From: Dermatophagoides farinae
Lineage: Eukaryota; Arthropoda; Arachnida; Sarcoptiformes; Pyroglyphidae
NCBI RefSeq assembly: GCF_024713945.1
Contig: NC_134686.1
Location: 1,202,001 to 1,266,000 of the forward strand
Length of the DNA: 64,000 nt
Reading direction: 5' to 3'
A model generated the notes under the pieces. It was not told where the DNA came from and made no database searches. It worked only from the letters and a program-made list of their open reading frames with translations. How positions within the stretch are numbered: the stretch's first letter is position 1; each line of letters begins with the position of its first letter. Shown here piece after piece: positions 6,148 to 29,148 of the stretch. Position numbers and translations under genes: made by a program.

Positions 6148-6472
6148 TTGATTGAATACTAGCGGTAGATGATGATGATGATGATGATGACGGTGGTTGT
6201 TGTTGTTGTCCAACATCAACAACAACAACAACGGTGGATGTATTGAATATTGATAAATCTGTTGTTGTTATCATTGTTGTTGAAGTTAAATTTAACGATT
6301 GTTGTTGTTGTTGTTGTTGTTGTTGAATCATCACACACGTAACATTATTTACAAATAATAATAACAATGGAATAACGATAATTACAATCGAATGAATCTT
6401 CGAATGATGACGATGACAAAGATCATGATGATGATCATCAGTTTCATCTGTATCATCCATATTTTTGGCCAT
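6148..6472 (-). CDS. Probable first coding exon of a secreted or membrane protein (partial)
   Basis: An ATG at 6472-6470 opens a 108-codon frame, plus one base, that stops at a good donor (CAA then GTATGT; intron begins at 6147). The protein starts with an Asp/His-rich stretch, then a strongly hydrophobic segment (IVIIVIPLLLLFV) at about residues 30-42 that could be a signal peptide or signal anchor. It continues with a nine-Gln run, a Thr/Val-rich part and a run of eight Ser. Gln/Ser homopolymers of this kind occur in the confirmed genes of this window. The shared promoter palindrome lies 129 bp upstream of the ATG, which supports a real gene start. No later exon could be found in the window, so the rest may lie beyond the left edge. 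The family is not recognised. Confidence 0.5.
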
Positions 6473-6600: not shown

Positions 6601-6615
6601 ATCGATACTATCGAT
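6601..6615. promoter_or_regulatory. CGATA near-palindrome upstream of the minus-strand exon
   Basis: The 15-mer ATCGATACTATCGAT lies 129 bp upstream of the ATG at 6472. It is an inverted pair of CGATA units around one central base. The identical 15-mer is found upstream of RPA2, and its exact reverse complement upstream of POLR1C. In Drosophila, DREF binds TATCGATA and BEAF-32 binds clustered CGATA motifs. Whether a related factor acts here is inference. Confidence 0.5.
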
Positions 6616-9074
6616 AATAAAAATTATGATTATGATGATGATGATGATGATGGATTATGTAAATGTTCGATTCGATTCGATTTTTCTTTTTGTTTTCTTT
6701 GGATTCGTTACTAATATTTTTCTCTATTTATTCGTGCACTAAATTATTCAGATGATGATGATGATGATGATGATAATAATGATTATTATGATGATGATGA
6801 TTTATATTGAGCGTTTAGAATATGAAATGAGCAATGAAATTTGTTTACATACAGACACGACGATATGATGGAGAATAAATCAAGAATCATCATCATCATA
6901 TATTAATAGAACTGTGAAATTGATGGATTTTGATTTGCCGGCAACGATCAATAATGATGACGATGATGATGATGATTGGATTCGTCGTCCGATTTTTTTT
7001 TTGGTCTGATTATTTGTATGATGATCACCGACAAGAGATTGATCAATGATCGAGTGTTGTTCGTGTGTAAAGTTTTGTTGTTGTTGATAAAATTTGAAGC
7101 CAAAATGAATATCGATTCACACCATCACAAAATCGTTCATCAGCTGAAGAAGATTGTGAAAAATATTTCGGTCACGTAAAATTCAAATTTTTTTTTCACT
7201 ATATTCTTGATTCTAAAAAATTCTTCTCGTTTTGTTTAGACTGAATTTGGATTCGTAAACGAAATTCTTCAATTCAACAAATAAAAAAAAAACTCATCAA
7301 AGCCTCGAGAATTCTTTCATTTAAAAATTTTTCAACATGGAATCGAACAATAATAATAATCGAATACGGAAATGAATCCAAAGAAGAAAAAAACGATTGT
7401 GTTCCATTTTTTTTCTATGAAACAAAAGACCGAAGAAAAACAAACATGAAAAAAAGGATTTTTTTCCCTGTTCATTTCATTAGAATAAACCCGAAAACAC
7501 ACGCAAAAAAAACTTTGAATGGGATTAAAATTTCGGTTGAAATTTTACCAACAGAAGAAGGAAAAGTTTCTCAATGATGGCGACAAAGTTTCCAGAATCG
7601 ATGAAGAAGAAAGAAAGAAAAAAAAATTCTGTCTGTCGATCTTTATTCCTGAAGAAATTTTTTTTTTTGAGTTGATAATTTTCACATTCTTCGATGTAAA
7701 ATACACGAAAGAATTTTATTATGTCAAACACACACACACGAACAAACAAACAAACAACAATGATGATGACGTGATATCAGCATTGGAACGTAGTAAGAAA
7801 AAAAAAAGAATCAGACGAACGATATGATTCAAATGCAAATTAATTTTTTTTATTTTATTTTATTTTAATAATGTCAATGCAGACATAGTCGAGGTTTTTT
7901 TTTCATTGCAAACAAACGAAAGATGTTGACATTACATCATTTGCATCATTCACATTGTCACCAGATAGCTAGGAACACAAAACAGCAACGAAGCGAATCC
8001 AAATTTTTGAAAATTCTTCATTTTTTTGCAGAGACAAAAAAAAATAATAATATTTCATGTCACTGTCAAACGATAAACAAAATCATTTTTTTTTCAACAA
8101 CATTCATAATCAGAGTGGAACAAAAAAAAAAAAAATAACATCATATCATGATAAAGAAGATAATTTTTCACGTTGAATTTTTTTTTCTTTTATTTGTCTT
8201 GGATCGTTGATGATGATGATTGTTACGCGATGCGATTTACACGAAGAATCGCGCCAAATACTAGATTCACTTGGTGTTTTATATCAACGAAAAATGGAAT
8301 GAATGAATTCTCAGCTAGCAACTGTAGAAGAAAAAAATTCTTCATGATTCAGGTGATGATTCTATATAGGATAGGCGATGCGTGCGCGCACACATGAGAC
8401 ATGGAATTTTTGTACTTGAAAAATATTCTGTGCGAAAGACAACAACAACAACAACAACGACGACGACGATGCAATTCATGATTAAAGTTGAGAAGAGAGA
8501 GATATTCAATTGTATATCTTAAATTTGAAATTTACAATTCTACAAATCACTTCTATTCTTTCAGATCAGAATCTTTTGATATTATGATGATAATCATTGT
8601 CATACAAAATAATCAAATCATTGTCATTTCGAAAATTCCTTGATCCTATATATAAATAGAATAAGAATTGGTAATGAAAATGATATGATAATAAATGATG
8701 ATGATGATGATGATGATATAATTGGACATTAGCATCAGTCAATTAGCATTATAATGAGATATATAACTTTGTCTTCACAGGTTCCAAATGGAATTTCTTT
8801 TATTTTGTTGTTGTTCGTTATTGTTGTCATTGTCGTTGTAGTTTGGTACCCATTTTCATTTACGATTCAATTTAGTGATGTAGAAATTATTCTGACTTGA
8901 ATTCATTATCATGTTTTTTCTTTTTTTTTTGATAAATTTATTTGTTGGAATTCTGGATCATTGATTTAATTTAATGTTGATTTTTTTGTTTTGTTTTTTT
9001 GTGGGGTTCGAATTTCATTAATTGTAATGACAGAATGTAGATGGCACAATCGTGTCGATGATGATGAACAACCA

Positions 9075-9112
9075 AATCGATAGCATTCGGTGAAATTACG
9101 ATACAATCGATA
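9075..9112. promoter_or_regulatory. Two AATCGATA half-sites upstream of CCT5
   Basis: AATCGATA occurs at 9075-9082 and again at 9105-9112 in the same orientation, about 170-210 bp before the CCT5 start codon. This is the half-site of the near-palindrome found upstream of POLR1C and RPA2. The spacing and direct orientation differ, so the functional link is weaker. Confidence 0.35.
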
Positions 9113-9282
9113 TAATCACGCCTTTTTGAAGCATGCTTTCGTTTTCATTGTTCAGTGGTGTGTGTATGTGTAGTGATCATTGAATGTGTAAACTTTTTTT
9201 TTTTTGGATTTTGCCCACAATTTTAATTTTTAATTTTTCAAATTAATCGTTTAATTCTTGAACAAACAAACAAACGAAAAAA

Positions 9283-11077
9283 ATGGCTAGCGTAGGAACT
9301 TTAGCTTTTGATGAATTTGGTAGGCCATTCTTTATTCTTAAAGATCAAGATCGACAAAAACGATTGACCGGTACTGAAGCTATCAAGGTAAATATAAAAT
9401 GATTCTTATTCGCATTTTTTTTTCATTACAAAACTAATTTTAATTTTCAATTTTATTCGATCCGTAGAGCCATATTTTGGCTGGTATTAGTGTAGCTAAA
9501 ATATTACGAACATCGCTTGGACCGAAAGGTCTGGATAAAATTATGGTCTCAGCTGATGGCGATGTTACCATCACTAATGATGGTGCAACAATACTTAAAA
9601 TGATGGATGTTGAACATCAAATTGCCAAATTATTGGTTGAACTTTCTCAATCACAAGACGATGAAATTGGTGATGGTACTACTGGTGTTGTTGTATTGGC
9701 TGGAGCTTTATTAGAACAAGCTGAACAATTACTTGATCGTGGTATTCATCCAATTCGTATTGCCGATGGTTTTGAATTGGCTGCACGTCATGCATTGGAA
9801 CATCTGGATAAAATCTGTGAAAGTTTCCCGATCAATCAGAATAATTTGGAACCATTAATCGAAACTGCTACAACAACATTAAGTTCAAAGATTGTCAATC
9901 GTTGTTTACGGAAATTTGCCGAAATAGCAGTGAATGCTGTAATTTCGGTTGCCGATCTTGAACGAAAAGATGTCTCATTCGATTTGATTAAAGTTGAAGG
10001 CAAACCTGGTGGAAGACTTGAAGATTCAATTTTGGTCAACGGTGTTATTGTCGATAAGAATTTTAGCCATCCACAAATGCCTAATGAATTGAAAGATGTA
10101 AAACTGGCCATATTAACGTGTCCGTTTGAACCACCAAAGCCAAAAACCAAACATAAGTTGGATGTACAATCGGTTGAAGATTATCGTAATCTACGAAAAT
10201 ATGAAATTGAAAAATTTGAAGAAATTGTCCAACGTGTTAAAGATGCTGGAGCAAATCTGGTCATCTGCCAATGGGGCTTCGACGATGAAGCTAATCATCT
10301 ATTGTTGCAAAAAGAATTGCCTGCTGTTCGTTGGGTCGGTGGCCCCGAAATTGAATTAATTGCTATTGCAACCGGTGGTAGAATTGTTCCACGTTTTGAG
10401 GAATTAACTCCAGAAAAACTTGGTAAAGCTGGCATCGTACGTGAATTATCTTTCGGTACTACACGTGATAAAATGTTGGTCATTGAACAATGTCCAAATA
10501 CCAAAGCTGTAACGATTTTTATTCGTGGTGGTAACAAAATGATTGTGGAAGAAGCTAAACGTTCAATGCATGATGCTCTTTGTGTTGTACGAAATCTTAT
10601 CAAAGATAATCGAATCGTTTATGGTGGTGGTGCTGCTGAAATATCCTGTGCATTGGCTGTATCGGCAGAAGCTGACAAGATCACATCATTGGAACAATAT
10701 GCATTCAGATCATTTGCCGATGCATTGGAATCAATACCATTAGCTTTGGCTGAAAATAGTGGCCTTTCACCAATAGAAACTGTGGCCGAAGTGAAAGCAC
10801 GACAAGTAAAAGAATCCAAACCACAATTGGGTATTGATTGCATTCAAAAAGGAACTAATGGTAATATTTTTTTGTTTATTTCATTTTTACATTTTCATGT
10901 GTTTAATTTTTAAGACTAACCCACATTTTTATTTATTTATATACACATACAGATATGAAAGTTCAAAATATAATCGAAACATTGAATAGCAAAAAACAAC
11001 AAATTAGTTTGGCCACACAATTGGTGAAAATGATTCTAAAAATTGATGATATTCGTTCATCCGAAGGAATGATGTAA
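9283..11077 (+). CDS. CCT5: T-complex protein 1 subunit epsilon (CCT5), 3 exons
   Basis: One of the eight subunits of the cytosolic TRiC/CCT chaperonin, which folds actin, tubulin and other proteins using ATP. Exons are 9283-9387, 9468-10860 and 10953-11077. They join in phase to give 540 aa, against 541 in human. The N-terminus [16 protein letters not shown] is typical of the epsilon subunit. Group II chaperonin motifs are present: [10 protein letters not shown] near residue 55, the nucleotide-binding GDGTT at about 103-107, and the late VYGGGAAE segment. The third exon supplies the conserved end ([23 protein letters not shown]). Introns are 80 and 92 bp with GT-AG ends. The ATG at 9283 fits the family start. 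An AATAAA lies 85 bp after the stop. The identification is firm. Confidence 0.97.
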
Positions 11078-11580
11078 TAATCGAAAATTATTTCATTTTT
11101 TTTTATATATTCGATGATTATTGATGATGATGATGATGATTTAAATTTTAAAACAAAAAAAAATAAAAAGGGCAATTTTTTTTAAAAATATCGACAATAG
11201 ATGTCACTATAGTGGTGGATTATTTTTTTTTGTAGTGGATAAAGTGGGCGGGTCTAACAAAAAAAAAAAAATAGAAAATTGAACTAGCTGCCATTTTGTC
11301 GGCGTGTGTGTGTGTGTGTGTGTGGTAGCTCCAAATTATATTCTTTTGGTTGATGGTGTGTGTTTTTGGCTGCTTGCTCAATTTTTTTTTGTCTTTGTTT
11401 CGCTCTTTGTGTGTGTGTGTGTGTGTGTGCTCACCATATTCATTGCAGCATACGTTCAATTTGCATTGGTGTTGCGTTTCATTTTTTTTCTTTTTTTTTT
11501 TGGTTATTTTGTTTTTTCAAATCTTTCCATTTGTAATAAATTTGTTTTCAAAAAGTATAATTTTCAAATATTGATTAAAA
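11078..11580. other. CCT5 3' flank and hnRNP promoter
   Basis: Holds the probable CCT5 poly(A) signal, a GAT run (about 11122-11141), two TG tracts (11304-11324 and about 11408-11430) and T-rich sequence leading into the hnRNP start. The 10-bp palindrome CACTATAGTG sits near 11205. No other gene is seen. Confidence 0.6.
11162..11167 (+). terminator. Probable CCT5 poly(A) signal
   Basis: AATAAA, 85 bp after the CCT5 stop codon. Distance and orientation fit; cleavage at this site is not shown by sequence alone. Confidence 0.5.
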
Positions 11581-13069
<1,489 letters not shown>

Positions 13070-13154
13070 ATATATAATTCGAAATTTTCATTACTAAAAA
13101 AAACAAAACAGAAAAAATCATCCATTGTCGACATTTAATTTTTCGCCAAAAAAA

Positions 13155-13160
13155 AATAAA
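13155..13160 (+). terminator. Possible hnRNP poly(A) signal
   Basis: AATAAA 85 bp after the hnRNP stop codon. Longer 3' ends are also possible, because the downstream sequence has further A-rich stretches. Confidence 0.35.
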
Positions 13161-15238
13161 AAAATTCAAATCTCACACGGGTAAGTTATATTTTTTCATT
13201 TTTTTTCAAAAAAATTTTTTGTTCAAAATTTTTGCCTGACAAATTTATGTTTGGTATATAAATTGCAAAAAAAAAAAAAAATTTTTTAGTTTCAAGCTTA
13301 AAATAATATTCAAAAATAATCATTTTCTTTATTCGTTGCATTCTTTTTTTTCTAGGGTTTATCTTTCTTTCTATTTTCATTCGTACAGTTAAAAAAAATA
13401 AAAATAAAAATTATAAGGACAAGATATACAGGACAGGCCACAAGATGATGATGATGATGATAAAATATAGTGAACAAAAAAAAATCAGAACAGAAAAACA
13501 GTATCCACGTATTCAAAATGTTATATAATCTAATGAATGATAATGATCTTTCTAATATATCTCTCAATCGATGATTCGATCTTAAAAATGTGTGTGTTGA
13601 TCTTCTGTGTACCTACTCGCGTGTGTAAATATATTAAATAATATAGGTATCGATATCGTATTTTAAAGCAAATATAATCCAGATATATATCGTATAAATT
13701 ACCGAAGATGAAGATTAATTGATTGATTATTGATGAATATGAATGTATTGATGATTAGAAAAGCAAAAAAAAAAATCAAAGTTTCAACACAGCATCATTT
13801 TTTTTTCATAAACCATTCACAAGCAAACACACATATATTAAATGATTGTTAATGCGCATCTCAAACCATCAGAATCAGCAGAACTTTTTATTATTATTAT
13901 TATTATCATCGATTCATTTATCTGGTCAATGTTTTCAAACAAACAAACAAAAATCGTTCCCAATATATCCCACACACACAGTTTATATTCCATTCAACAG
14001 AATAGTGCCAGAATAAACGAAAATGAGCCCTGTTTTGTTTTTTTTTTTCATTTTTTAAATGTCGACTTCATTCAAATACAAACAAAAAAATATATTCAAT
14101 CCAATTCCACTTTTTTTTCCTTTTTCTTCTTCTTCTTCTTCCTCATAAGTTTCATTTTGATTTTCTTATTCATTTTTCATTGATTTTTTTTTCTCTATAT
14201 AAAAATTCTATCATTTGAAATTGATATTCTCATTCTCTCTCTCATCTATTTCTTACTATTATGATGATGATCGTAAAAAAAAACTTGAATAAAATACAAA
14301 TTTTCCAAGGCCAAAATTTAGTTTGTTTTTTTTTATCGAAATAAGAAAGAAAAATCCAAAAGATTATTATACACATTATCGATATTAACACATTACATAT
14401 AAGCAGAACATTGAATTTTGTGTAAAACACACAGGTTTTTATTATCACTTTTTAATCAATTAAATCTCAATTTTTAATTTATTATTTATATTTATATTAT
14501 TATTAATCATCATCATGTAATAATTGATAATTTAGTAGCCGATTGATTGATTGATTCATTTTTTTTTGCTGACCAAACATTTCAAACAAACAAATAAACA
14601 CTGACCAGACATACATAACAGACACACACACATATATACTACCTACAATAATTGTCAACAATTTCACACACACACACACACACCTATGGATATGTCATCA
14701 TTGATAATAAAGTTTTCAAACAAAAAAAAAAAGAAAATTCATATTTATCGATTATATTTAATTTCAAACAAGCATCGATCAGTGAAAAAAAATTTTATCT
14801 TAAAAATAGATGGCCAGGACAGTGAATTATTGTTGTTGTTGTTGTTGTGCTTAGGTAAAGACCATCAGCTTTTTCTATCCAACACCACCATCACCACCAC
14901 CACAATTCACCATCACTTCATTCAATCCCAATTCCTTTTTTTTCATTTCAATGTTGGAATGTTTTTTTTTTCAATCATTTATTTCAATTAATCTCTATAT
15001 ATATATTCCATTTCTATTTCATTGATTCTTTTGAACACCAGGATGATGATGATCATTATGGCCACGATGTTTATGGATTCGAAGGGTTGTTTTTTGGCAT
15101 GCCCCCTCCCAAAAAAGGTAAGTTTTTCAAAATTTGGTAAATTTTGAATCTGATTGATGTACAAGTGACAATATTGAATTGTTTTGGAAATAAAAATGAA
15201 ATTTTTTTTCACAAATAAAAAATTGTGTCCAAATAAAT

Positions 15239-15244
15239 TTTATT
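15239..15244 (-). terminator. Probable RPL15 poly(A) signal
   Basis: Reads AATAAA on the minus strand, about 80 bp beyond the RPL15 stop codon, the usual distance for a short ribosomal-protein 3' UTR. Confidence 0.5.
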
Positions 15245-15325
15245 TCAAAATTTTTTTTTGGGGAGGATTGATAAATCGAATAGAGATTTACATTTTTTTT
15301 TTTTGAAAAAACCAATATATCGATT

Positions 15326-16072
15326 CTATCGTTTTCGGCGTAGCTGTAATGTGTTTCGTCTGCGCCAATTTCCACGTCGTGATCCACCAATTAGTTTGGA
15401 ATAACCATGTCCAGAACCACGTAGGCCACGATGTTTTTTGCCTGAACTAGTCAAACCACGTAATTCACGATGTTTATGTACAGCGTTACAGATCCAATTG
15501 ATCTTTGGATCACGACGGATAGCCTTGTGGAAAGGATCAATACAAATGATCTACGAAAATGGAAATTTTTGTTTTTGTCATTAAATAGTGATGACAATGC
15601 TTTTAAAATTTACCTCAAAAAATTTAAAAGTAGAATCCTGTCCAACCCAATAGGATCCTAAAATTCGCAAAGCATGAGCAACACGACGGCCAACACGTTC
15701 TTCAGCAATGGCTTGCAAATTTCGTTTCGGTTTCAATTCATTGACACCATGGTTCTTTGGTTTGCCATATGTGGCACCTAGAATTCGATTCAAAATTTTT
15801 AAATTAATGGAAATAATGATACAATAATAATTACAAATACCTTTTGGAACTTGGCGTTTTCGGCCACCACGTCGAACACGAACACGATAAATAAGATAAC
15901 CTTGTTTAGCTTTATAGCCAAGTCGGCGAGCTTTCTCCGTACGTGTTGGTCTTGGACATCGAGTTATGACATTCAATTGACGATATTGCCAGGTACGTAC
16001 ACGAAGCAAAAATCGCATAACATCAGATTGTTTGTGTCGCCATATTTCTTGCATATATTTGTATGCACCCAT
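15326..16072 (-). CDS. RPL15: 60S ribosomal protein L15 (eL15), 3 exons
   Basis: Structural protein of the large cytosolic ribosomal subunit. On the minus strand the exons are 16072-15841, 15777-15614 and 15550-15326, with 63-bp introns, giving 206 aa (204 in human). The start [20 protein letters not shown], the core [15 protein letters not shown] and GATYGKP, and the end RRRNTLQL are diagnostic. The frame is open upstream to an in-frame ATG at 16255, but all L15 proteins begin at MGAYKY, so the start at 16072 is used. The gene diverges from the ATP13A-like gene. The region upstream of the ATG is pyrimidine-rich on the minus strand, as expected for a TOP-type leader, but the start site is not established. 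Confidence 0.97.
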
Positions 16073-17065
16073 TTTGGAATATTCTGATTCTGATGAAAAA
16101 ATACAAAAAATTTCAATGAAAAACACCAAAAAAAAAACACTGCACACTAGCACACACAGTGAGAAGAAAAGGAAGTTGCTGCCACCGTGAAAAACACAAG
16201 CCAATCGAATCGTGTGTGTTGTGAAAAGAAAAAACAGAAAAAAACCACGTTTCATAACCGTTCATATAAACTAGTGCAAAAATGTTTTGATAATTTATTC
16301 ATAGATGGCGATCAAATCTGTTAAAAAGAATTTTTCGAATGAATTGATACTTTGTACATTTTAATTACGAAAAATTTTTAATTAAATTAATTATTACGAA
16401 TGTATATTATCCTTGAATATCCTGAATCTTGAATAATTATCATCTTGAAAAATATCTAGGTCGAATCCAAATGTAGAAAAAGGGGTCTGGTTGGACCACA
16501 ACATTTTCATATCGATGTATCATATTCGTTTTGAATCAATCAATCAATCAATTATAATCTTATCAATGATTTTGTTTCATTTTTTCTTCCCTTGTGAATA
16601 AAAATCCGATGAAATTACAATGACGTTAAACGATCATCATATCATATCATATTGTTGGTTGATTGTCAAAAAAAAATTGGTCTTCATGTTGATTACGTCT
16701 CGTTTTTATTTTTTTGTTTGTTTGATGGCATCCGACGTGACCGAAAGACAAGCACTGATTAGTATGGACTGGAATGTCATCATTCAATCTAAATCAATCA
16801 AATGATATGATTATAAAAGTTTTGAATTGTATGTTTTGATCTGTTTGTTTAGCTTGATGGTGATGATTTTTTTTTTTACTTCTTTAGTTGTTTATTGTAT
16901 TTTGTTCATAATCATATTGATGATATGAAAACTATGGCATAGTTTCGCGAATGTTTCGTTTTATTTTTCTTTTTCTTTTTCTTTTTTTGTCACCCATAAT
17001 CTAAATGATTTAGAATTTTGATTTTTTTTTTCGTTTATCTCGACAAATTCATTGAATAAAAAAAC
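16073..17065. other. Divergent intergenic region, RPL15 / ATP13A-like
   Basis: Contains the 5' regions of both diverging genes. The minus strand near 16215-16255 is pyrimidine-rich (RPL15 leader side), and T-rich sequence precedes the plus-strand start. The frame at 16620-16805 has no domain and poor composition, so I do not call it a gene. Confidence 0.6.
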
Positions 17066-20000
17066 ATGTTGGATTCCAAACGTGGAATCGATCAACAACA
17101 ACAACAACACCATGATCGAATGAATGTTGGTGAAGAAGATGAACTACAATTGCAAGGATTCACCAATTCATTATGGAAAACAATCATCATTGGTATGGCT
17201 GTTTTTGCGTCCGGTGGATTAATTGCCATATTGATGTTATTGAAACCGGCCATTAGGATACGATTGACTAAAAAACGATGTTCATTAGATAAAGCACAGA
17301 TTCTTGTGCTAAAAGTATGTTTGTGGTTTGTGTATATGATGAAGAAAAAAAATTCATTTTTTTTCACTATCTCTCAACAGGATAAATATGGCGATGAATT
17401 TGTGGAACAAATGCATGTGATGCCAAATTTATCATATCGTTATTTTATGCATAAAAAAATCAAATACATATGGACAGATGAATATGAACATTTTAAAAAA
17501 CTAAAAGGTCTTGATCAAGAAAAATGTAGTGTTCTTTATAGCCAAGTGGAAGGTGCATCATCAACGGAAGCGGCAAAAAAATTGAATTTATTTGGACGTA
17601 ATTCCATCGATATTGAAGTGTTGCCCATTTGGCGTTTAACATTTAATGAGGTTTGAAAATTGAAATTTATTATCATTATCAGAATCTATTTTGTTTGTCC
17701 GTTGTAGATTACTGGACCATTTTATCTGTATCAATTTTTCATCATTTGTGTTTGGTTAATTCAAGATTATTATCAATTTGCTGCCTGCATATTTATATTG
17801 TCCACTGTGTCCGTTGCAATGCATGTATGGCAAACACGTAAGGTTTGTTAAAAAAACGTTTTTTTTTTTGATTTCAAAATTCAACATTCCCCCTATTCTA
17901 TTTAGCAATCAATAGCATTGAGAAAAAAAGTACATTCAACATCAATGGTCACTGTGATTCGTGATTCAATATCGGTGCAGAAAAATTCCACAGAATTAAT
18001 ACCCGGTGATGTAATTGTTTTGCCAAAACATTCATCAAACATTCATTATATGATGGAATGTGATGCAGTACTAATGACTGGTTCATGTATTATGGATGAA
18101 AGTATGTTAACTGGTGAAAGTCTTCCAGTGCCAAAAGTTCCACTTGTTGATAATCCAACATCAATATATTCATCATCAATACATAAAAGTAACACTTTAT
18201 TTTCCGGAACAAAATTATTAAATGTTTATAGTAAAGAAAATATCGATGTAATGGCCGTTGTAGTACGTACTGGATTTTCAACCACAAAAGGAGAATTGGC
18301 TAGAAGCATTCTATATCCAATGCAAATGAATAACAACATCAAACGACAAATGATCAAAATGTCCATTATATTTGTGTTTTTGATTGGTATCCCATCGTTT
18401 ATTTACACTTATTATGCATTAAGTCGATTTGATTTTGCCACCACCAGTATCATGATCATTGTATTGGATGTTGGTACATTTTTAATACCACCGGTTTTAC
18501 CGGCCGTATTGACCAGCGTTAATGTACATGCACAACGACGATTGAAAAAGAAAGGAATATTCTGTTTGAATTCACAGGCGATTGCTTGTGCCGGTGAAAT
18601 TGATACAATGTGTTTCGATAAAACTGGCACACTAACAGAAGATACAATCGATTTTGCAGGAATTGTACCGATTTTGAATAGAAAATTTCAATCAATACTC
18701 ATTGATATGAAATGTTTACCAGCCGATAGTATTATTGTCAAAACAATGGCATCATGCCATTCATTGGTTGAATATAAAGGCAACATTGAAGGTGATGATC
18801 TTGATTTGAAACTATTTTCAGCTAGTGAATGGACATTTGTACAAGATATGGATGATTTGAATAAAACATTTGGAAAAATTCCTGAACGTATTGTAACCAA
18901 TACATTTTCCGGTACAAATTATCAATTAATCGGTATAATGAAACAATATCCATTTGAATCATTTCTACAAAGAATGTTGGTCATCATTAAAGATGTGAAA
19001 GAAAATCGTTTAATGGCAATTGTAAAAGGTGCACCTGAAGTGTTGAAATTATTTTGCATACCAGAAACATTACCGGAGAATTTTAATGAAATTCTTGAAC
19101 AATATACTAGCCAAGGATTTCGTGTACTAGCAACTGCATCGAAAATCATAGACACTATGGATATGGATGAATGTCTTGAAATGAGCCGTAGTTTACTAGA
19201 AAGTGATATGACATTTAATGGATTCTATTTATTTAAAAATAAACTTAAACCATCATCCGAAGATATCATTAAAGAATTGATGGATGCCAATATTCGTTGT
19301 GTAATGGCCACTGGTGATAATATTTTGACAGCATTGGCCGTTGCACAAGAATGTAATATGGTCAATAAATGTGATGCTATTATCCGAGTGAAGGCAATCA
19401 CCAACAAATTATTACCGAATCAAATTTCCATCCATTATGATTATGTAAAATATCCTGATTTTATGATCATGAATAATAATGATGATGATGTAGAAGCCAA
19501 TGAAATTAATGAACAAAAATTCAATTATCATATAGCCATCGATGGTGAATCATATAATGTCATTAGAAATTCGAAACCATCATTGATTGATCGTATTATT
19601 CATAAAGGAACAATTTTTGCTCGTATGACACCGGATCAGAAAAAAAGTTTGATTACAATTCTACGAAAACAGGATCATAATGTTGGAATGTGTGGTGATG
19701 GTGCCAATGATTGTGGTGCATTACGTGCTGCTGATGCTGGAATAGCATTATCAGTGGCCGAAGCATCAGTAGCATCACCATTCACGTATAAAAATAAAGA
19801 TATTTCCTGTGTACCATCATTGATCAAAGAAGGCCGCTGTACATTAGTCAGTGTTTTTGGTACATTTAAATATCAAAGTGCATATTGTTTTATTTTATTG
19901 GGTGCAGCATTAATATTATTCTGGCATGGATTTCGACCATCCGATGGTACATATGTATTTGTTGATGTTATAATGAATATTTTACCACCAATGGTATTTG

Positions 20001-20745
20001 CTACAACACATCCATATCCAAAACTTTCACAACGAATGCCTATACGAAATTTATTGAGTTTTATTCAACAAATGTCGCTATATTCATTTATTATTGGTCA
20101 AGTTTTTATCTATTATCTAATAAGAACATATCTGATTACACAACCATTTTATGTACCGGTGATAAGTGAAGATATTATTGAACAACCAGTACATAATCAG
20201 ATTGCATATGCAATTTTTTCAGCAAATACAATGTCTTATGTTATTGCTGCTATTGTGTTTGCACCAGGACCACCATATCGTTTAGGATTTTTTTTCAAAC
20301 AGTAAGTTAAATGTTTGTTGTTTTTTTATTTCCCTCATTTAATTTCAAATGATTTTCATTACCACCAGAAATCTACATTTGTATGGTTTTAATCAATTTT
20401 TCATTATCATTATTGATGTCATTGATTGCACCGGAATGGTTTATCGATTTTTTGCAATTCATACCATTACCATTCGATTTTCGGCTAACAATTTTATTCA
20501 TTTGTTTATTAAATTTTATATTGTCATTCATATTGGAACGATATTTTTGGTATGGATTAATGGCAAATTATTTATTACCTTGGATCCGGATGAAATTTCG
20601 TATAAAATCAATGAAAAAATATCGAATATTAAATGAACAAATTGTACAAGATAATTGGCCATTTGAACATTTAATTGATGATGATTTCATACATAATGGA
20701 CAATCAATAACAGCCACCACCTACCACCAACGTAATAACGGGTGA
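17066..20745 (+). CDS. P5B-type ATPase (ATP13A2/ATP13A3-like), 5 exons, one apparent frame break
   Basis: P-type ATPase of subfamily P5B, endolysosomal membrane pumps; ATP13A2 and ATP13A3 are linked to polyamine transport. Exons are 17066-17314, 17381-17650, 17708-17842, 17906-20301 and 20369-20745, giving about 1141 aa if the frame is restored. Visible motifs: TGES at about 287-290 (actuator), PPVLPAVL in the M4 region (P5B type, not the P5A PPELP), DKTGT with the phosphorylated Asp at about 456, KGAPE in the nucleotide site, and GDGANDCGALRAAD near 815. Membrane segments lie before TGES, around PPVLP and in the last third. The Gln-rich N-terminus is short. Exon 4 ends in phase 2, but exon 5 must be read in the frame starting IYICMVLIN to match the family end (WFIDFLQFIPLPFDFRL). 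The eight-T run at 20288-20295 appears to hold one T too many. Confidence 0.9.
20288..20295 (+). other. Homopolymer frame break in the ATP13A-like gene
   Basis: Eight T residues in exon 4 just before the donor at 20302. Read as given, splicing to 20369 puts exon 5 in a frame with no P5B similarity. One T fewer gives GPPYRLGFF followed by SNK, then IYICMVLIN, which aligns with the family C-terminus. The donor (CAGTAAGTT context) and acceptor (ACCACCAG) are otherwise good. The cause may be assembly error, polymorphism or an unusual splice. Confidence 0.7.
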
Positions 20746-20873
20746 TGATCGATTAAAAATGCCTAAATCATCAAGTTTTAATTTTTAATATATACATATA
20801 AATAGATTGATTATTTTGATACAAGAAAAAAATTAATTTGTCAATTTGTCAATGATAATGATTCAAAATAGAA

Positions 20874-20879
20874 TTTATT
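20874..20879 (-). terminator. Possible poly(A) signal of the small membrane protein gene
   Basis: AATAAA on the minus strand, about 150 bp beyond the stop codon at 21030. It would place the two convergent 3' ends (this gene and the ATP13A-like gene) very close together. Confidence 0.35.
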
Positions 20880-21029
20880 CAAATTTCATCCATAAAACGT
20901 TCGAATGTGTTCGTGTGCAAATGTGAATATTCAAGAATTGGTTGCAATTGTATAGAAACTTAATGAAAAACCGGAACAACAATCGGAATTAACCACAAAA
21001 CAGAATGGGCCAAATTCTGTTTCTATTTT

Positions 21030-22627
21030 CTATTTAACTTTTTTAGTCGTTTTTTCCATCTTTTTTTTCTTCTTCTCTTCACGACGTTTTTCTTTGTCCT
21101 TTAAATTTTGTACCAATTTATAGACAAAAAATCCTGGATTAATGAGAAAGAAAAAAAACAACAGAAAAATTAATTTCAATCGATTAATAAATTGATAATA
21201 AAATAGATCTAACCGATGATTAACACCGGAATCAACACCAATAATATCCAATACATTTTTTTTCTTGTTTTGTTTTCGAACGAAATCAATTAAATTTCAG
21301 ATCACAAAATAATAAATCAATCAATGATGATGATGATGATGATTAGTGACACGTGTTATGTTATCCAGACACACACACACACACACAAAAATCGAACGGA
21401 ATCAATAGGAGTATTTTAGAGATTTGGAATTAACCATGAAAAAAAATAGACAACAATCAAACCAAACTTTATCACTGTTGATGATTTGTTTTTTTTTGTG
21501 TGTGTGTATGAGAGAGAGAGGTTGGTTGCCACCATCATCATCATCATAGATACACCACCAAACAGACTTCATCAAACCAAAAAAAAAAACAGGTTGATGT
21601 GGACATTTTATCGACAAGCTGATGATGATGGTGGTGGTGGTTAAAGCCACCATTAAAAATGTGATAATGATAATTAGATGAAAAATGTGCACAATACACA
21701 CACAGAGACAGAGAGAGAACTAAACTGACAAGTTTTTATCGTCATATGTCAGCATCCATGCAATGAACTATAGTCTACTACTGCTGCTGCTGCTGATGCT
21801 GTAAAATTTAAAATGTTGATCCGCCAAAAAAAATAGAAAACGAAAGGAATGAAATTGTAATTAGTAAAAATTGAATTAATCTCATCGATTAACAATCAAT
21901 AAGAAAAAAAAACAATTGCTTTATATACCAGCGGAATAATTAGAAAAAAAATTTCAAAAAAATTATGGAATTTCGTAAACAAAAATTGCCAAAAAAATTC
22001 GTGGCTAAAAACCTGATGAACATTCGGCGACAAAAACAACAACAACAACAACAGCAACAACAACAACAACGTAATAATATGATGAAGACAAGAAATAAAA
22101 TTAATAATAATGATCTTAGAATTGGCGCATTTGTACAGCCAGGAAATTTTACATTAGGTAATTTATTGGAAAATTTATTCATGCCATTCGATGATCATAA
22201 TGAATATGAATCATTGGAATTTATACAACAAATGAATGATTTGAAAACACCACGTGAAAAAGATGATGAACAAATTGAAAATTTATATAAAATAATGAAT
22301 GAATCTGAAACAATCATTGCTGATACGATTGAAAAACAAATGATAAAAGAATCAATTATGGATGAAAATTATGATGATGAAATTGAAAAAATTATTGATA
22401 AAATACAAAAACATTCGAAAATCCATGATGATGAATGAATGAATGATTTTCGAATGTTTTTGTTTTTTTTTCTACTTATAAATAAAAATGATAAAATAAA
22501 ATGAAATTTACTCTCTCTACTAACCTATAAGCGAAAAAATTATAATGCCGGGTCCTATGAATATCCAATTGTTGAAACCATGTGAAATGATTCCATATGA
22601 TTCTGAATTGCCCGCTAATTCGACCAT
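21030..22627 (-). CDS. Small single-pass membrane protein, SMIM15-like, 2 exons
   Basis: Exons on the minus strand are 22627-22525 and 21133-21030; together they give 68 aa. Exon 1 encodes MVELAGNSESYGIISHGFNN and then a hydrophobic segment (WIFIGPGIIIFSLI). It ends at CTTATAG/GTTAGT. Exon 2 starts after a strong pyrimidine tract and ATCCAG and continues GFFVYKLVQNLKDKEKRREE, then a Lys-rich tail. Layout (short N-terminus, one membrane segment, YKL..-(D/E)KEK charged coil) resembles small integral membrane protein 15. The similarity is by eye only. The intron is 1391 bp, far longer than the 53-96 bp usual here, and carries an opposite-strand ORF. The start faces MTR4 across 269 bp, suggesting a shared divergent promoter. 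Confidence 0.65.
21965..22438 (+). CDS. Unrecognised 157-aa protein nested in an opposite-strand intron
   Basis: A single-exon frame from ATG at 21965 to TGA at 22436-22438. The N-terminus is basic (MEFRKQKLPKKFVAKNLMNI), followed by an 11-Gln run. The middle (LRIGAFVQPGNFTLGNLLENLF) and the acidic, probably helical C-terminal half (repeated Glu/Asp/Ile/Lys) do not look like translated simple repeat. I do not recognise a family. It lies entirely inside the 1391-bp intron of the small membrane protein gene, on the other strand. It could be a young or fast-evolving gene, or an additional exon of an unseen plus-strand transcript. Confidence 0.6.
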   Translation: MEFRKQKLPKKFVAKNLMNIRRQKQQQQQQQQQQQRNNMMKTRNKINNNDLRIGAFVQPGNFTLGNLLENLFMPFDDHNEYESLEFIQQMNDLKTPREKDDEQIENLYKIMNESETIIADTIEKQMIKESIMDENYDDEIEKIIDKIQKHSKIHDDE

Positions 22628-22828
22628 GATTTTTTTTCGTTTGTTTGGATTATTATTTCATAGTATTGATTGATTTAATTTAATTTCATTTGAAATTCAA
22701 TATATTCTTTTTTCATGTAAATGAAATTGTTCAAACTTGAAAATTGTTATTTTTATGGAATATTAAAAAAAAAAAATTTGTTTTCGATACACACAATACA
22801 CTATTGAAACAGTTTGCGATTCATTAAG

Positions 22829-22868
22829 GTATAAATAGATTCCAAGCAATATAAGCTCAACTCACGTG
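22829..22868 (+). promoter_or_regulatory. MTR4 promoter elements: TATA-like box and E-box
   Basis: TATAAATA begins at about 22830, 67 bp before the MTR4 start codon, and the E-box CACGTG lies at 22863-22868, 29 bp before it. The E-box sits in the 11-mer CAACTCACGTG (22858-22868), which recurs upstream of POLR1C. CACGTG is the canonical Myc/Max, USF or MITF-type site. So close to the ATG, the E-box may lie within the 5' UTR. Confidence 0.4.
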
Positions 22869-22896
22869 TTGTTTTTTTTTCTAAAAAAAATTCGAA

Positions 22897-25800
22897 ATGG
22901 ATTTATTTGATGTTTTTGATTTGGATCCAAAATCCAATGATAATAATAATAAACGAAAAGCCAATGTTATTGAAGAAAGTAATGGCAAAAATAGTGGTAA
23001 TGATAATGGTGAAAAAGAATTGATGACCATCGACGAAGATGTTGACAACGGTTTGATCGATAAATTAATCAACGATGTGAAACGTAAAAAAGGTAATGAT
23101 GATAATCTTCTAATCACTTCAATGGTAGATGAATTGACCAAAACACATGATGATAAAGATGATGATGATGATGAAAATTTGGGTCAAGATTATGGAACTT
23201 TTACTGCTCGTGTCGCAATTCATGAAATAGAAACACAAGGATCGTGTGTACATGAAGTGATCATACCTGACGATTTGGAATATGTGCCTCTTCGAGATCA
23301 AAGTGAAAATCCTAATTATAAACCGGCTAAATCATATAAATTCACATTGGATTCATTTCAAAAAGAAGCAATCCTTTGTATTGAAAATAATCAAAGTGTT
23401 TTGGTTTCGGCACACACTTCCGCTGGTAAAACGGTTGTTGCTGAATATGCCATTGCATCTTCATTCCAAAACAAACAACGTGTTATCTACACAACACCAA
23501 TCAAAGCATTGAGTAATCAAAAATATCGTGAATTTCAAGAAGAATTTGAAGACGTTGGATTAATCACTGGCGATGTGACAATCAATCCGAATGCCACTTG
23601 TTTGATTATGACTACAGAAATTCTTCGTTTAATGTTATTTCGTGGCAGTGAAATTATGCGTGAAGTTGGATGGGTAATTTTCGATGAAATTCATTATATG
23701 CGTGACCGTGAACGTGGTGTTATCTGGGAAGAGACCATTATTCTTTTGCCCGACACTGTGCATTATGTTTTCCTATCCGCTACTATACCGAATGCAAGAC
23801 AATTTGCCGAATGGATAGCTCATCTACATCATCAAAGTTGTCATGTTGTCTATACAGATTTTCGTCCAACACCTTTACAACATTATATCTATCCAGCTGG
23901 TGGTGATGGACTTCATTTGGTATTGGATGAACAAAATAATTTTCGTGAAGATAATTTCAATCTAGCTATGAATGTATTGCAAAATTCTTCTGTTGAAAAT
24001 TCATCATCCAAAGGTGGTGATCAAAGTTGTATCACAGTTATCCGTACAATCATGGAACGAAATCTGGCACCAGTTATTCTATTTAGTTTTAGCCGTAAAG
24101 AATGTGAAGTTTATGCACTTCAAATTAGCAATCTTAAATTGGATTTCAATTCTGCCGAAGAAAAAGCATTAGTCGAAGAAGTATTTAATAATGCAATCGA
24201 TGTACTTGGTGATGATGATAAAAAATTACCACAAGTACAGCAAATATTACCACTTCTTAAACGTGGTGTTGGCATCCATCACAGTGGTCTTTTACCATTG
24301 ATCAAAGAAACGATTGAAATTTTATTCGGCGAAGGTCTTATAAAAGCATTGTTTGCCACCGAAACTTTTGCCATGGGTTTGAATATGCCGGCTAGAACGG
24401 TTGTGTTCACAAGTGTACGAAAATTTGATGGTACAAATTTTCGATTTCTAACTTCAGGCGAATACATTCAAATGAGTGGCCGTGCTGGCCGTCGTGGCCT
24501 TGATGAACGTGGCATAGTTATACTTCGTGTGGATGAAAAAGTTAATCCAGCTGTTGGTAAAGAAATGATTTGTGGTAAACCTGATCCACTGAACTCAGCT
24601 TTTCATTTGACATACAACATGGTCCTAAATCTGTTACGTGTTGAAGAAGTAAATCCTGAATACATGCTTGAGCATAGCTTTTTCCAATTTCAACAATATC
24701 TTGAATATCCTAAGCTGCATGAAAGTAAGTTTTAATTGATTTTGGATTTTTTTTTAATTTTAAAATTTTTTCTCATTTCTGCCACATTTAGAATACAAAA
24801 AACTAAAAGAACAAAGTAACATCAAAATTGAAAATGAAGAATGTATTGGTGATTATGTTAAAACAAAAAATCAGATTACTGAATTGACCAAAGAATTTCT
24901 GGTTTTCATCACAACACCAAGATATATTTTACCATTTTTAAATAGTGGACGTTTATTGAAAATCGTTAACAATGATAATATCGATATGGATTGGGGTGTA
25001 TTGATTAATTATAATAAACCACCACCAATGGATAGAAAACGAAATGATAAACAAGAATTGACATATCAAATCGATGTTCTGCTACCAGTGGATAAAACAA
25101 TTGATCCAATTAGTGAAACAATATTGCCACCAAGTAGTGTGGAAAAATGTGAAATGAAAATTGTATCATTACGATTATCGAACATTACAAATATCAGTGC
25201 AGCACGTGCATTTGTACCACAAGATTTACGTAGTTATGATAGCCGCCAATCGGTTTTGAAATCTATAAAAGAAATTAAAAAACGTTTCAGTGGAAACATT
25301 CCTTTGTTGGATCCATTGGTGGATATGAAAATCAAAGATAATGATTTTCTCAACATTGTCAAACGAATTGAATTGTGTGAAAAAAAACTACGTGAATATA
25401 AACAAATCAACCAAGAAAGTGTTAAACAATATGAACGAAAAATGGATATTGTACATAAAATGAAACAAACCAAAGAAATGATGAAAAAAACTAGAAGTTT
25501 ATTACAGATGGATGAATTGAAATGCCGTAAACGTGTACTGCGTCGTTTAGGCTATTGTACATCGGCAGATGTCATCGAGATTAAAGGACGTGTTGCCTGT
25601 GAAATTACTAGGTTTGTATTATATGATGATTCACTGATGATTTGTTTATTCATCAATTTTCCATTTCTTTTTTGTTTTGTTTTGTTTGTTACAGTGGCGA
25701 TGAATTATTATTGACCGAAATGTTATTCCATGGATTATTCAATGATTTAAATGTATATCAGATTGCCGCATTATTAAGCTGTATGGTTTTCGAAGAAAAA

Positions 25801-26178
25801 ACAGATGTTCGACCTAAATTGGGTGAAGAATTATCGAAACCATTGAAAACAATGCAAGAATTGGCTAAAAAAATTGCAACCGTTTCAAAGGAAACCAAAT
25901 TAGAAATCGATGAAAAAGTTTACATAGAAAAATTTCGACCAAATCTAATGGATGTTATTTATTCATGGACAAAAGGAAAGTCATTTTCAGAAATATGTAA
26001 AATGACCGATGCATTCGAAGGTTCAATAATACGTTGTATGCGACGTTTGGAAGAATTATTAAGACAAATGTGTCAGGCATCAAAAGTGATTGGCAATACT
26101 GATTTGGAAAATAAATTCTCTGAAGCAATCAAATTAATAAAACGTGATATTGTTTTTGCAGCCAGCTTATATCTTTAA
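22897..26178 (+). CDS. MTREX: Exosome RNA helicase MTR4 (SKIV2L2), 3 exons
   Basis: Ski2-family DExH RNA helicase that unwinds RNA for the nuclear exosome, as part of TRAMP/NEXT-type complexes, in rRNA maturation and RNA surveillance. Exons are 22897-24724, 24792-25611 and 25695-26178, joining in phase to 1043 aa (human 1042). After an acidic, Asn/Lys-rich N-terminus come EYVPLRDQ, the Walker A motif SAGKT (175-179), [17 protein letters not shown], the DEIH box (263-266), [15 protein letters not shown], and motif [12 protein letters not shown] (525-534). The arch/KOW region is in exon 2 and the helical-bundle DSHCT domain in exon 3 ([19 protein letters not shown] to the end ASLYL). These distinguish MTR4 from SKI2. 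Introns are 67 and 83 bp. Confidence 0.97.
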
Positions 26179-26190
26179 ATTTAGACTTTT

Positions 26191-26196
26191 ATTAAA
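26191..26196 (+). terminator. Possible MTR4 poly(A) signal (ATTAAA)
   Basis: ATTAAA 13 bp after the MTR4 stop codon, in the 94-bp gap between the convergent MTR4 and SUB1 coding regions. Confidence 0.35.
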
Positions 26197-26212
26197 CGAT
26201 TTTCATTTTTTT

Positions 26213-26218
26213 TTTATT
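26213..26218 (-). terminator. Possible SUB1 poly(A) signal
   Basis: AATAAA on the minus strand, 55 bp beyond the SUB1 stop codon. It lies within 25 bp of the MTR4 signal, so the two 3' ends would overlap. Confidence 0.4.
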
Positions 26219-26272
26219 AATGTAATGATAATGATTCATTAAACAATGATGTAATTTATAAATTAGATTCAT

Positions 26273-26618
26273 TCATTCAGAACCTGAATCACCTTGATCT
26301 TTAATCATTTTTTTAATCATATCCATATTGGATACAATTTTTTTCCATTCTTCCATCGATAAACTGATGCCTTTTTTTCCTGGTTTTCGTTCACCATCTT
26401 CATTGCGATAATATTCACGTATATCAACACGTACTTTATTCTTAAAGTCCGAAACGGTTAGGTAACGATTGTTACTCAATTTCAATGAATTTGGTGATTC
26501 TTCATCCGAATCTGGAGCCATGGCTATTTGAATTAATAAAAAGATATCAATATAATGATCAATATGATATGATGATACAAATAGCATTACCTTTTTGTTG
26601 TTTCTTTTTGCTGGACAT
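26273..26618 (-). CDS. SUB1: Transcriptional coactivator PC4/p15 (SUB1), 2 exons
   Basis: Single-stranded-DNA-binding coactivator of RNA polymerase II, also linked to Pol III and DNA repair. On the minus strand, exon 1 is 26618-26591 (MSSKKKQQK) and exon 2 is 26523-26273, with a 67-bp intron; the product is 92 aa (human 127). The PC4 C-terminal domain is clear: NRYLTVSDFKNKVRVDIREY, then GERKPGKKGISLSMEEW. The human Ser-rich N-terminal region is mostly missing, leaving a short basic start and an acidic DSDEESPNS. The acidic tail DQGDSGSE is short. The ATG at 26522 could start a shorter product, but the spliced Lys-rich start matches the family better. The gene converges on MTR4. Confidence 0.93.
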
Positions 26619-26919
26619 GATTTCGATGATTGATTGATGAAATTGAATAAAAAAAAGCGCGTAAACTGATTGAATGACAAGATTGAATGAATAAATAGTT
26701 GCTCTCTCTCTCTCTCTCTCTCTTAATACTGAAAAAAGCAGTGATGATGAAATTTGTATTCATCTATTTTGACATAAATGAATCAGGACAGTCAGAAAAG
26801 TCGACGATGCATTCAAAAAAACAAATGCTGAAAATTTTAATCATTCTCAATTTATGGAAAATTTACCAATTTGAAAAAAAATCAAATAATAATCAGGAAC
26901 TAACGGTGTCATTTTTCGA
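26619..26919. other. Gap between SUB1 start and POLR1C end
   Basis: Serves as SUB1 upstream region and POLR1C 3' flank. The only marked element is the CT tract at 26702-26722, listed separately. No gene is seen. Confidence 0.6.
26702..26722. repeat. (CT)n tract upstream of SUB1
   Basis: About ten CT units, 84-104 bp upstream of the SUB1 start codon. GA/CT tracts in arthropod promoters can bind GAGA-type factors, but CT microsatellites are common here, so function is open. Confidence 0.7.
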
Positions 26920-27870
26920 TTATTTTTTTTCAGGTTCAGATTTAACTTTTTGAATACGTTCTTTCCATATTTCAATTTTATATTTGAATATATCCAATGC
27001 ATTAATAAACATTTCGGCCGGATCTTTTACGCCATAAGTTTCAACAATAAAAATCAAATGATCACGATAATATTTCACCTGGACAGCTTTGGCTACATCA
27101 TCATAATTTTTAAAACTTCTTGTATGATGATCCAGGCGTTCATTAACAACAACCGGTATAATTTGACCATTTGGTCGGATTTTCGTTTCAATTACACCAG
27201 CCGGAAAAGATGATTTTATTCGTTCAACTGTTTCATTGGAAAGATTTTCTCCATCTTTTATAGTGATTTGTGAATGAAAAAAATAACGAGCAAATCCTGG
27301 ACTGAATTTCATGTGATCTAAACCACGACCTTTAACACAATGTAAACGACAAACAATTTCTTCATCTGGTTTCAGATACATGATTGGTATTTTTGGATAC
27401 AGTAATTTAATCGGTGATAATAGATTTTGTCTTGTTCCAATCGGTTCCCATACAATTTCATCGGCATATATTTTGATTGGTTGTGTGCCAGTATTTTTTC
27501 TATTCAAATTCATCACAATACAATTATTCGTATTCAATCGTTCCGATTGGTTTTTATTTCGAAATTTAAAATCATTTGGATTAGCATCGATTGGAATCAA
27601 TGCTAAACGTTGGGAAATGTAATCACAATTGAAAAAAGTGGAAGTGTTTTTCTGAAAATAAACATCTTCGATGGCCATCGTAGGAATTTCATTCAAAATT
27701 AATTGCCGTATTGTATTAGCAAAAAATGGTTTCAAACCAATGATATCGAAATTGATTTCATCTGAAACGATCGATTGTATACGAATTTCCAGTACTTTTA
27801 ATGTTTGATCAATACTTTGAACATCAGGATAACGATAAACATAATCACTGAATTGTTGAAGATCAACCAT
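26920..27870 (-). CDS. POLR1C: RNA polymerases I and III subunit RPAC1 (POLR1C), single exon
   Basis: Shared alpha-like subunit of RNA polymerases I and III that pairs with RPAC2 to nucleate assembly. The single exon gives 316 aa (human 346). The alpha/Rpb3-type dimerisation region is visible in NFDIIGLKPFFANTIRQLIL and NEIPTMAIEDVYF, with QRLALIPIDANP in the position of the family's HRLGLIPI motif. The insert domain follows, and then VCRLHCVKGRGLDHMKFSPG, typical of RPAC1 and Rpb3. The end (FIVETYGVKDPAEMFINALDI) is the second half of the dimerisation fold. The slightly short length reflects a short N-terminus. It sits in a same-strand row with RPA2 upstream (159 bp) and SUB1 downstream (301 bp). 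An E-box and the CGATA near-palindrome lie just upstream. Confidence 0.95.
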   Translation of the reverse strand: MVDLQQFSDYVYRYPDVQSIDQTLKVLEIRIQSIVSDEINFDIIGLKPFFANTIRQLILNEIPTMAIEDVYFQKNTSTFFNCDYISQRLALIPIDANPNDFKFRNKNQSERLNTNNCIVMNLNRKNTGTQPIKIYADEIVWEPIGTRQNLLSPIKLLYPKIPIMYLKPDEEIVCRLHCVKGRGLDHMKFSPGFARYFFHSQITIKDGENLSNETVERIKSSFPAGVIETKIRPNGQIIPVVVNERLDHHTRSFKNYDDVAKAVQVKYYRDHLIFIVETYGVKDPAEMFINALDIFKYKIEIWKERIQKVKSEPEKK

Positions 27871-27933
27871 CTTTTTTCTAAATCTTTGAAATGAATATAA
27901 AATTCTACAAATTCATTGGATCATCAATCAACT

Positions 27934-27939
27934 CACGTG
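27934..27939. promoter_or_regulatory. E-box upstream of POLR1C
   Basis: CACGTG 64 bp upstream of the POLR1C ATG, within CAACTCACGTG (27929-27939). The same 11-mer precedes MTR4. A Myc-type site on a Pol I/III subunit gene is biologically sensible, but binding is inference. Confidence 0.4.
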
Positions 27940-27958
27940 CTTTCAACAACAACAAAAA

Positions 27959-27975
27959 AATCGATAGTATCGATT
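27959..27975. promoter_or_regulatory. CGATA near-palindrome upstream of POLR1C
   Basis: Eight-base inverted arms (AATCGATA / TATCGATT) around a central G, 89 bp upstream of the POLR1C ATG. Its inner 15 bases are the exact reverse complement of the 15-mer upstream of RPA2 and of the exon at 6472. It lies just 55 bp past the RPA2 stop codon on the plus-coordinate side, so it belongs to the RPA2/POLR1C gap. Confidence 0.55.
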
Positions 27976-27997
27976 ATATTTAAAATTAATTGAAATT

Positions 27998-28003
27998 TTT
28001 ATT
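27998..28003 (-). terminator. Probable RPA2 poly(A) signal
   Basis: AATAAA on the minus strand 27 bp beyond the RPA2 stop codon, and only about 25 bp from the POLR1C promoter palindrome. Confidence 0.45.
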
Positions 28004-28029
28004 GAATTCAAATTTTTTTGGGAAAATTT

Positions 28030-28897
28030 TTAGAAAAAAGTAGCTTTAAAAGTATTTTCATCGACTGTACTGAAGATATGACCTTCATTTACCAAGAATT
28101 GAATGGCATCATCAATTTGTGAAGGATTGACACCAGTCATATAGTTATGAATTTCAATACGTTTTAAACCAGATGGTGAATCCTTATGTTTGGACAGAAT
28201 ATTCAACACTCCACGTTGAAGTTGAGTATAACCACCATTATTATTGTTGGAAGTATTATTGCCACCAATTTGATTTACGTTTGATGGTCCAGCCATAGCT
28301 CCTTTGTTTTTTGCATTGACAGTAACATTTTTACGTTTTTCCAAAAACAATGAATCATTAATGACTTGAAGAAAATGTTCTGGAATTTCATTCGGATCCT
28401 TGATTGCGTCCACACGGAAAGCAACAACAAATGGTTTTTGTTCACTATAGGAAACTTTTCCGGTCACACGAATGTAGGTTCGTTCTAAAACGGTCGGTGG
28501 TACCAACGAAATTCGCATTGATCCACCGGGACCTAAATGAATTACACAAAATGATCATTATTTTTCACGTCAAATTTTACAATTACAAACCTTCAGCAGT
28601 ATTTTTCCAGTATTGAACTTCGATTGGACCACCCGGTGTATAATCATCGATGACATAAACATTTTTGGTCGTAACTTCTTCAACGCTTTGCACGACACCA
28701 ATGACAACAACAGTATGGACTTTTTGTCGATGCAGAACTAGCCCATCTTCTTTACGTGTTAAACGGGCAATCTGTGAACATGATACGTGAACAATATTTT
28801 GATCTAATTGATTTTCGATCTTTTTTGTACCATGACCAGCAACATTACCCGATTCATCGGGAGCATCAAAATTTGAAGGCTTGAAAAAATCACTCAT
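28030..28897 (-). CDS. RPA2: Replication protein A 32-kDa subunit (RPA2), 2 exons
   Basis: Middle subunit of the RPA heterotrimer, which coats single-stranded DNA in replication and repair. Exons on the minus strand are 28897-28591 and 28532-28030, with a 58-bp intron; the product is 269 aa (human 270). The N-terminus is short and polar, followed by the OB-fold DNA-binding domain D (about residues 38-165): HVSCSQIARL, VVVIGVVQSVEEV, YVIDDYTPGGPIEVQYW, YIRVTGKVSYSEQKPFVVAF and DPNEIPEHFLQVIN. A Asn/Gly linker leads to the C-terminal winged helix (GVLNILSKH, then DDAIQFLVNEGHIFSTVDENTFKATFF), which recruits repair proteins. The N-terminus is less Ser/Gly-rich than the vertebrate phospho-region. 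Confidence 0.95.
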
Positions 28898-29115
28898 TTT
28901 TTTGTGCCTAATATGAAAATCAAATTAAAATAAATGAACAAGCTTTAAATATCGAAAATCTGAATAGTCAGATGATGAAATACTCGAATGATGATGAAAA
29001 AAAATGAAGAAAGCTAAACGAAAATTCGAAAGTGATGAAATTGACTCAATCAATGACGACACAAAACAACACATACACACACACACACACACACAACATT
29101 CGCGCCATAAGGATG

Positions 29116-29148
29116 AAGACTATAATCGATACTATCGATTATAGTCTT
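29116..29148. promoter_or_regulatory. 33-bp perfect palindrome (16-bp arms) upstream of RPA2
   Basis: Sixteen-base arms that are exact reverse complements flank a single C, about 220 bp upstream of the RPA2 ATG. The core 15 bases (29125-29139) are ATCGATACTATCGAT, identical to 6601-6615 and the reverse complement of 27960-27974. It could form a cruciform or hairpin, but the shared core points to a protein-binding site. Confidence 0.6.

Follow-up and report, generated by a model that had tools for sequence, protein, structure and literature searches.

Among described systems, the closest to the element reported here are built on BED-finger proteins. According to the available text of the sources cited, DREF uses its BED finger to recognise TATCGATA, and human ZBED1 reads TGTCG(C/T)GA(C/T)A, with self-association needed (PMC6179265). 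BEAF reads clusters of CGATA near promoters and competes with DREF; its dual-core sites consist of two CGATA clusters bracketing an AT-rich spacer of about 200 b (PMC2605929, in the part available). The chelicerate core-promoter literature, in the text searched, contained no DRE. The full 15-mer described below was not found in either form in the literature searched, its 11-base core turned up only in works of unrelated title, and searches for TATCGATA together with mite, or for dust mite genome with DREF, returned nothing pertinent (Drosophila or unrelated works). To our knowledge, little is charted of promoter grammar beyond the insects.

In the window (the whole 64-kb stretch analysed, C10:1202001-1266000) we confirmed three exact copies of a 15-base word, ATCGATA-S-TATCGAT, in which S is C or G; the wider class with any centre base is ATCGATANTATCGAT. 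The word is composed of two ATCGAT palindromes at a repeat distance of 9 b and contains four CGAT half-sites. The copies lie where the preliminary description had placed them, and the distances it gave to start codons (129, about 230 and 90 b) are counted here as 128, 227 and 89 b. The relevant features of the window are:

6601-6615, forward strand: S-centred 15-mer, copy 1, 128 b upstream of the ATG at 6472 of a minus-strand ORF (putative gene)
9076-9112: region upstream of CCT5 with two ATCGAT, 171 and 201 b before the ATG at 9283
26920-27870, minus strand: POLR1C/RPAC1, ORF of 316 aa
27960-27974, reverse complement: S-centred 15-mer, copy 2, 89 b upstream of the POLR1C ATG at 27870 and 55 b past the RPA2 stop
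28030-28897, minus strand: RPA2/RPA32, at least two exons (28897 to about 28586, then the 28518 region to the stop at 28030)
29116-29148: palindrome of 33 b around copy 3, with one unpaired centre base and 9 further paired flank bases
29125-29139, forward strand: S-centred 15-mer, copy 3, 227 b upstream of the RPA2 ATG at 28897

Homology confirms the names proposed for the genes starting at 27870 (RPAC1, E 9.1e-38, with a Pfam match) and 28897 (Pfam RPA_C; RPA32, E 9e-21), the first exon of RPA2 having no Pfam match by itself. The ORF starting at 6472 matches Pfam TMEM144 with E 0.0076, which lies below the curated cut-off, so that its start is unproven and treated as putative. The suspicion that three exact copies would hardly arise by chance is borne out, as 100 dinucleotide-preserving shuffles of the window gave an expectation of 0.00 for ATCGATANTATCGAT. 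If up to three mismatches to the 15-mer are allowed, the window holds 14 rows where 2.02 are expected (near-palindromes being counted on each strand), and TATCGAT is about threefold enriched (35 rows against 10.8). The palindrome around copy 3 has a single-strand DNA fold z of -6.94, equalled by none of 200 shuffles; at the other 22 copies read, the extra paired flank bases number 0-4.

Across the genome (62.4 Mb, 22 contigs), ATCGATANTATCGAT occurs 96 times and its reversed, not complemented, control never. C/G-centred copies, hereafter S copies, number 70 (39 and 31 rows) against 0.48 expected, and A/T-centred copies 26 (12 and 14 rows) against 2.21; both expectations derive from an order-3 Markov model of 264 kb, made up of the window and 20 loci of 10 kb each, with the 23 sites masked. 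Inverted pairs with gaps of 0-20 total 326, of which 96 have a gap of 1 and 230 are spread over the other 20 gaps (11.5 per gap), and the reversed control has 15. Direct TATCGAT pairs number 366 and 335 over both strands, compared with the 326 inverted pairs counted once per site; the pairs are thus clustered without a general orientation bias, and we set aside a general orientation preference. What stands out among the pair arrangements is gap 1 with a C/G centre, and the one-base spacing that had been singled out in the window is therefore distinctive genome-wide. ATCGATAGTATCGAT with up to two mismatches yields 847/850 rows, and its control 44/54. Of the 28 bases that directly flank the 14 S copies read, 26 are A or T. 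On C1, 5 of 46 pairs have a CCG or CGG centre (ATCGATCCGATCGAT), a class to which the order-3 model assigns 0.5% of pairs.

The density of S copies is 0.2-0.7 per Mb on C1-C3 and C5 and 1.3-3.4 per Mb on C4 and C6-C10 (sizes past C3 being lower bounds). C5 carries one S copy and eight copies of a relative with an ACA/TGT centre. Eight pairs of S copies lie less than 30 kb apart, against 3.6 expected (p 0.03), and clustering within 10 or 100 kb is not significant.

Genomic context was read for 23 of the 96 copies (14 S and 9 A/T-centred); these are the three of the window and the 20 that come first when the contigs are taken in order (C1, C2 and part of C3). For seven of the 14 S copies a start codon follows 87-227 b downstream, and six of these seven genes could be named by homology; the start codons around S copies were located by eye, not blindly, and A/T-centred copies were searched less closely. 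Besides POLR1C and RPA2, the named genes are:

RBM42 (E 4.1e-42): S copy 87 b before the start codon
RTF2 (Rtf2, E 5.7e-87): S copy 105 b before the start codon
gamma-SNAP (E 4.3e-13): S copy 128 b before the start codon
GID8 (E about 1e-22): S copy 129 b before the start codon

An automatic coding score places 8 of the 14 S copies outside coding sequence and no more than 1 kb from a coding 5' edge; the same holds for 0 of the 9 A/T-centred copies, 52 of 270 single ATCGAT and 928 of 5,000 random positions (S versus random, p 0.0014; p 0.008 without the window's three copies). The sense-strand centre of the seven start-proximal copies is G in four and C in three, which fits a double-stranded site and argues against reading the word as an RNA hairpin or terminator. 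The 11 S loci read beyond the window contained no Rfam family at gathering scores.

For the other seven S copies read, no start codon was found within 250 b. Two copies appear to sit in introns, the one at L017 by forkhead-like exons and the one at L032 by Musashi-like exons (both named by eye); one ORF beside L017 has no Pfam match. No gene start is predicted within reach of three copies (L021, L027 and L031), the L033 copy lies about 460 b from an ORF lacking a Pfam match (putative gene), and the L025 copy lies 565 b from an ABC-transporter start. As a weak proxy for start codons we counted AAAATG at 100-130 b from all S copies. Eight matches were found, six of them at the 14 copies read, where four are the assigned start codons; these six are not independent, because the bin was picked from those same copies. 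At the 56 unread S copies there were two matches versus about six by chance, and of the three matches in the 400-430 b control two were at unread copies and one at a copy that was read. The proxy thus fails as genome-wide proof and gives no support for generalising start proximity. Since S density is low on C1-C3, the copies read, which come from there and from the window where the word was first noticed, may not be typical. The proposed placement near starts holds for half of the S copies read and finds no echo in the proxy at the unread ones.

Like the Drosophila DRE/DREF system, in the part of it described in the available text of PMC6179265, the 15-mer has an ATCGAT core and replication or housekeeping genes nearby, and half of the S copies read have a promoter-proximal place. 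It differs from the Drosophila DRE in pairing two palindromes, always equally spaced, around a C or G. The full TATCGATA octamer is present in 9 of the 14 S copies read and absent from five, including those at 27960 and 29125. The element is DRE-like by core and, at half of the S copies read, by place, yet rigid and double in form.

The preliminary description had called for a check for a BED-finger protein, and one is predicted. Profile matches to zf-BED occur at three places in the genome, two of them within one predicted gene; the two loci concerned here are:

C2:1453774-1454939: two-BED-finger gene, two exons (L036:174-662 and 740-1339) joined by a GT-AG intron, stop at 1339, predicted protein of about 362 aa
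C2:3118322-3120193 (L037:122-1993): hAT transposase-like open frame of 623 aa with a BED-type finger and a dimerisation domain

The two domains of the former match with E 4.8e-12 and 2.4e-12 and are similar to one another (E 8e-10). The match to human ZBED1 (2ct5) has E 2.9e-11 for finger 2 and is weaker for finger 1 (E 0.0012). All three BED matches have SGNT[TS]N in common, presumably in the recognition helix. The predicted protein is like the multi-finger ZBEDs (ZBED6, ZBEDX and ZBED4) in having two BED fingers, the second matching human ZBED1, and unlike them in its length and in ending after a short segment, with no hAT dimerisation domain found. This segment resembles, by eye, the part of ZBED proteins that we take to be their hAT N-terminal region. 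Dimer_Tnp_hAT (PF05699) has five matches in the genome and none at the two-BED locus as modelled, where a later exon is possible. Because the dimerisation domain was looked for and not found, we do not file the protein as a DREF. Nor is its likeness to ZBED1 evidence of DREF orthology, since ZBED1, according to the available text of PMC3606216, has no close phylogenetic relationship to DREF.

We give an even chance to the explanation that the S-centred 15-mer is a fixed-geometry, double DRE-like and mainly promoter-proximal element, probably bound by a dimeric BED-finger protein. It would be a sequence-specific site in double-stranded DNA, and its probable reader would be of the DREF/ZBED1 kind, the best candidate being the predicted two-BED-finger protein. 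A dimer of this protein could place four fingers on the four CGAT half-sites, and we infer this match from the composition of the word. Once bound, the site would increase transcription of the gene next to it; between closely spaced tandem genes it may also set a promoter apart from the gene ending just upstream. If this were true, a fixed double DRE with a compact two-BED protein would show a domesticated transposase finger and its site changing together, and the element could be tested directly as a promoter element. Should the interpretation prove wrong, it would still have to be explained what reads the 70 strictly centred and spaced copies.

The 15-mer could instead be a by-product of Ile-Asp-X-Ile-Asp codons, a repeat family or chance, which we regard as very improbable. 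The codon reading has a real basis in the relatives of the word. ATCGATNNNATCGAT occurs 469 times (about 46 expected; control 4), and of seven such copies read in predicted coding segments six are in the frame ATC GAT NNN ATC GAT, encoding Ile-Asp-X-Ile-Asp: three of four A/T-centred copies, both exact ACA/TGT-centred ones and one near-copy with one mismatch. Three of the nine A/T-centred copies are in predicted coding sequence at a coding-score cut of 12, and four at a cut of 10; with none counted outside coding sequence near a coding 5' edge, the N-centred word that had been put forward as one element is ruled out as a single class. The ACA/TGT-centred relative has 95 copies (control 1), and we dropped it as a second regulatory class because both distinct copies read, 2 of the 95, are in-frame codons. 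The A/T- and ACA-centred relatives are thus partly codons, and the ATCGATNNNATCGAT class beyond the S copies is probably not regulatory. For the 14 S copies read, a by-product is already contradicted: none is in a predicted coding segment, and the flanks of all 23 copies read are unrelated, sharing (blastn, 400 b) only eight short low-complexity matches, the longest of 44 b, as expected of a word that is not part of a dispersed repeat. The 70 S copies found against 0.48 expected speak against chance.

A second alternative takes the word mainly as a BEAF-32-like chromatin boundary that blocks crosstalk and is not an activator, placed where one closely packed gene gives way to the next and also at certain sites within introns or in intergenic DNA. 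One S copy lies in each of three stop-to-ATG gaps between head-to-tail genes:

window 27870-28030: gap of 159 b
L023:4502-4695: gap of 190 b
L029:4735-4904: gap of 166 b

These copies lie 46-55 b past the stop of the preceding ORF (RPA2 before 27960; by Pfam, POLO_box in L023 and a short-chain dehydrogenase in L029). A boundary could also accommodate five further S copies, two of intronic appearance and three without a gene in reach. As at BEAF-32 sites, which are CGATA clusters near promoters in the part of PMC2605929 available, several CGATA units lie near genes, with at least three in 200 b at 13 of the 14 S copies read (two of them the 15-mer's own). The likeness stops at the fixed inverted one-base spacing and at the dual-core arrangement, for which a second CGATA cluster at 100-800 b was seen in 4 of 14 S copies, rarer than at random positions (1426 of 3000). 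The sites are not of the dual-core type, and a boundary as the main function is unlikely. We also think it rather unlikely that the word is the ordinary site of a different, non-BED factor with a consensus that by coincidence consists of two ATCGAT palindromes. The BED candidate was chosen by the likeness of its fingers and the ATCGAT core, which leaves room for such a factor; against it, the proteins that read TATCGATA and CGATA, DREF and BEAF, are BED-finger proteins (PMC6179265 and PMC2605929, in the text available). The preferred reading, a double DRE-like element with a BED-finger reader, can be extended to a rebuilt DRE system, a version we hold to be doubtful as a whole. A hAT-derived two-BED protein that lost its transposase part would read the rigid double DRE, inverted with one-base spacing and a C/G centre, with one finger per CGAT half-site in the dimer, and the element would start and separate the promoters of tightly packed tandem housekeeping genes.

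A link to replication like that of DREF had been suggested from the window; by name it fits RPA2 and RTF2, the only replication-related ones among the six named genes, and not the other four. Single ATCGAT showed no clear excess upstream of 10 other starts compared. The two half-sites reported upstream of CCT5, a gene identified by a Pfam match, are both present, and one of the two ATCGAT lies inside a composite with two mismatches at 9097-9111. A further word, TATCGATTGT, has 10 copies in 264 kb against 2.2 expected, three of them in coding sequence. One copy is at 9103 in the window, 171 b upstream of CCT5, and another, at L030:6254, precedes a TBCB-like ORF (ubiquitin-like plus CAP-Gly) by 85 b.
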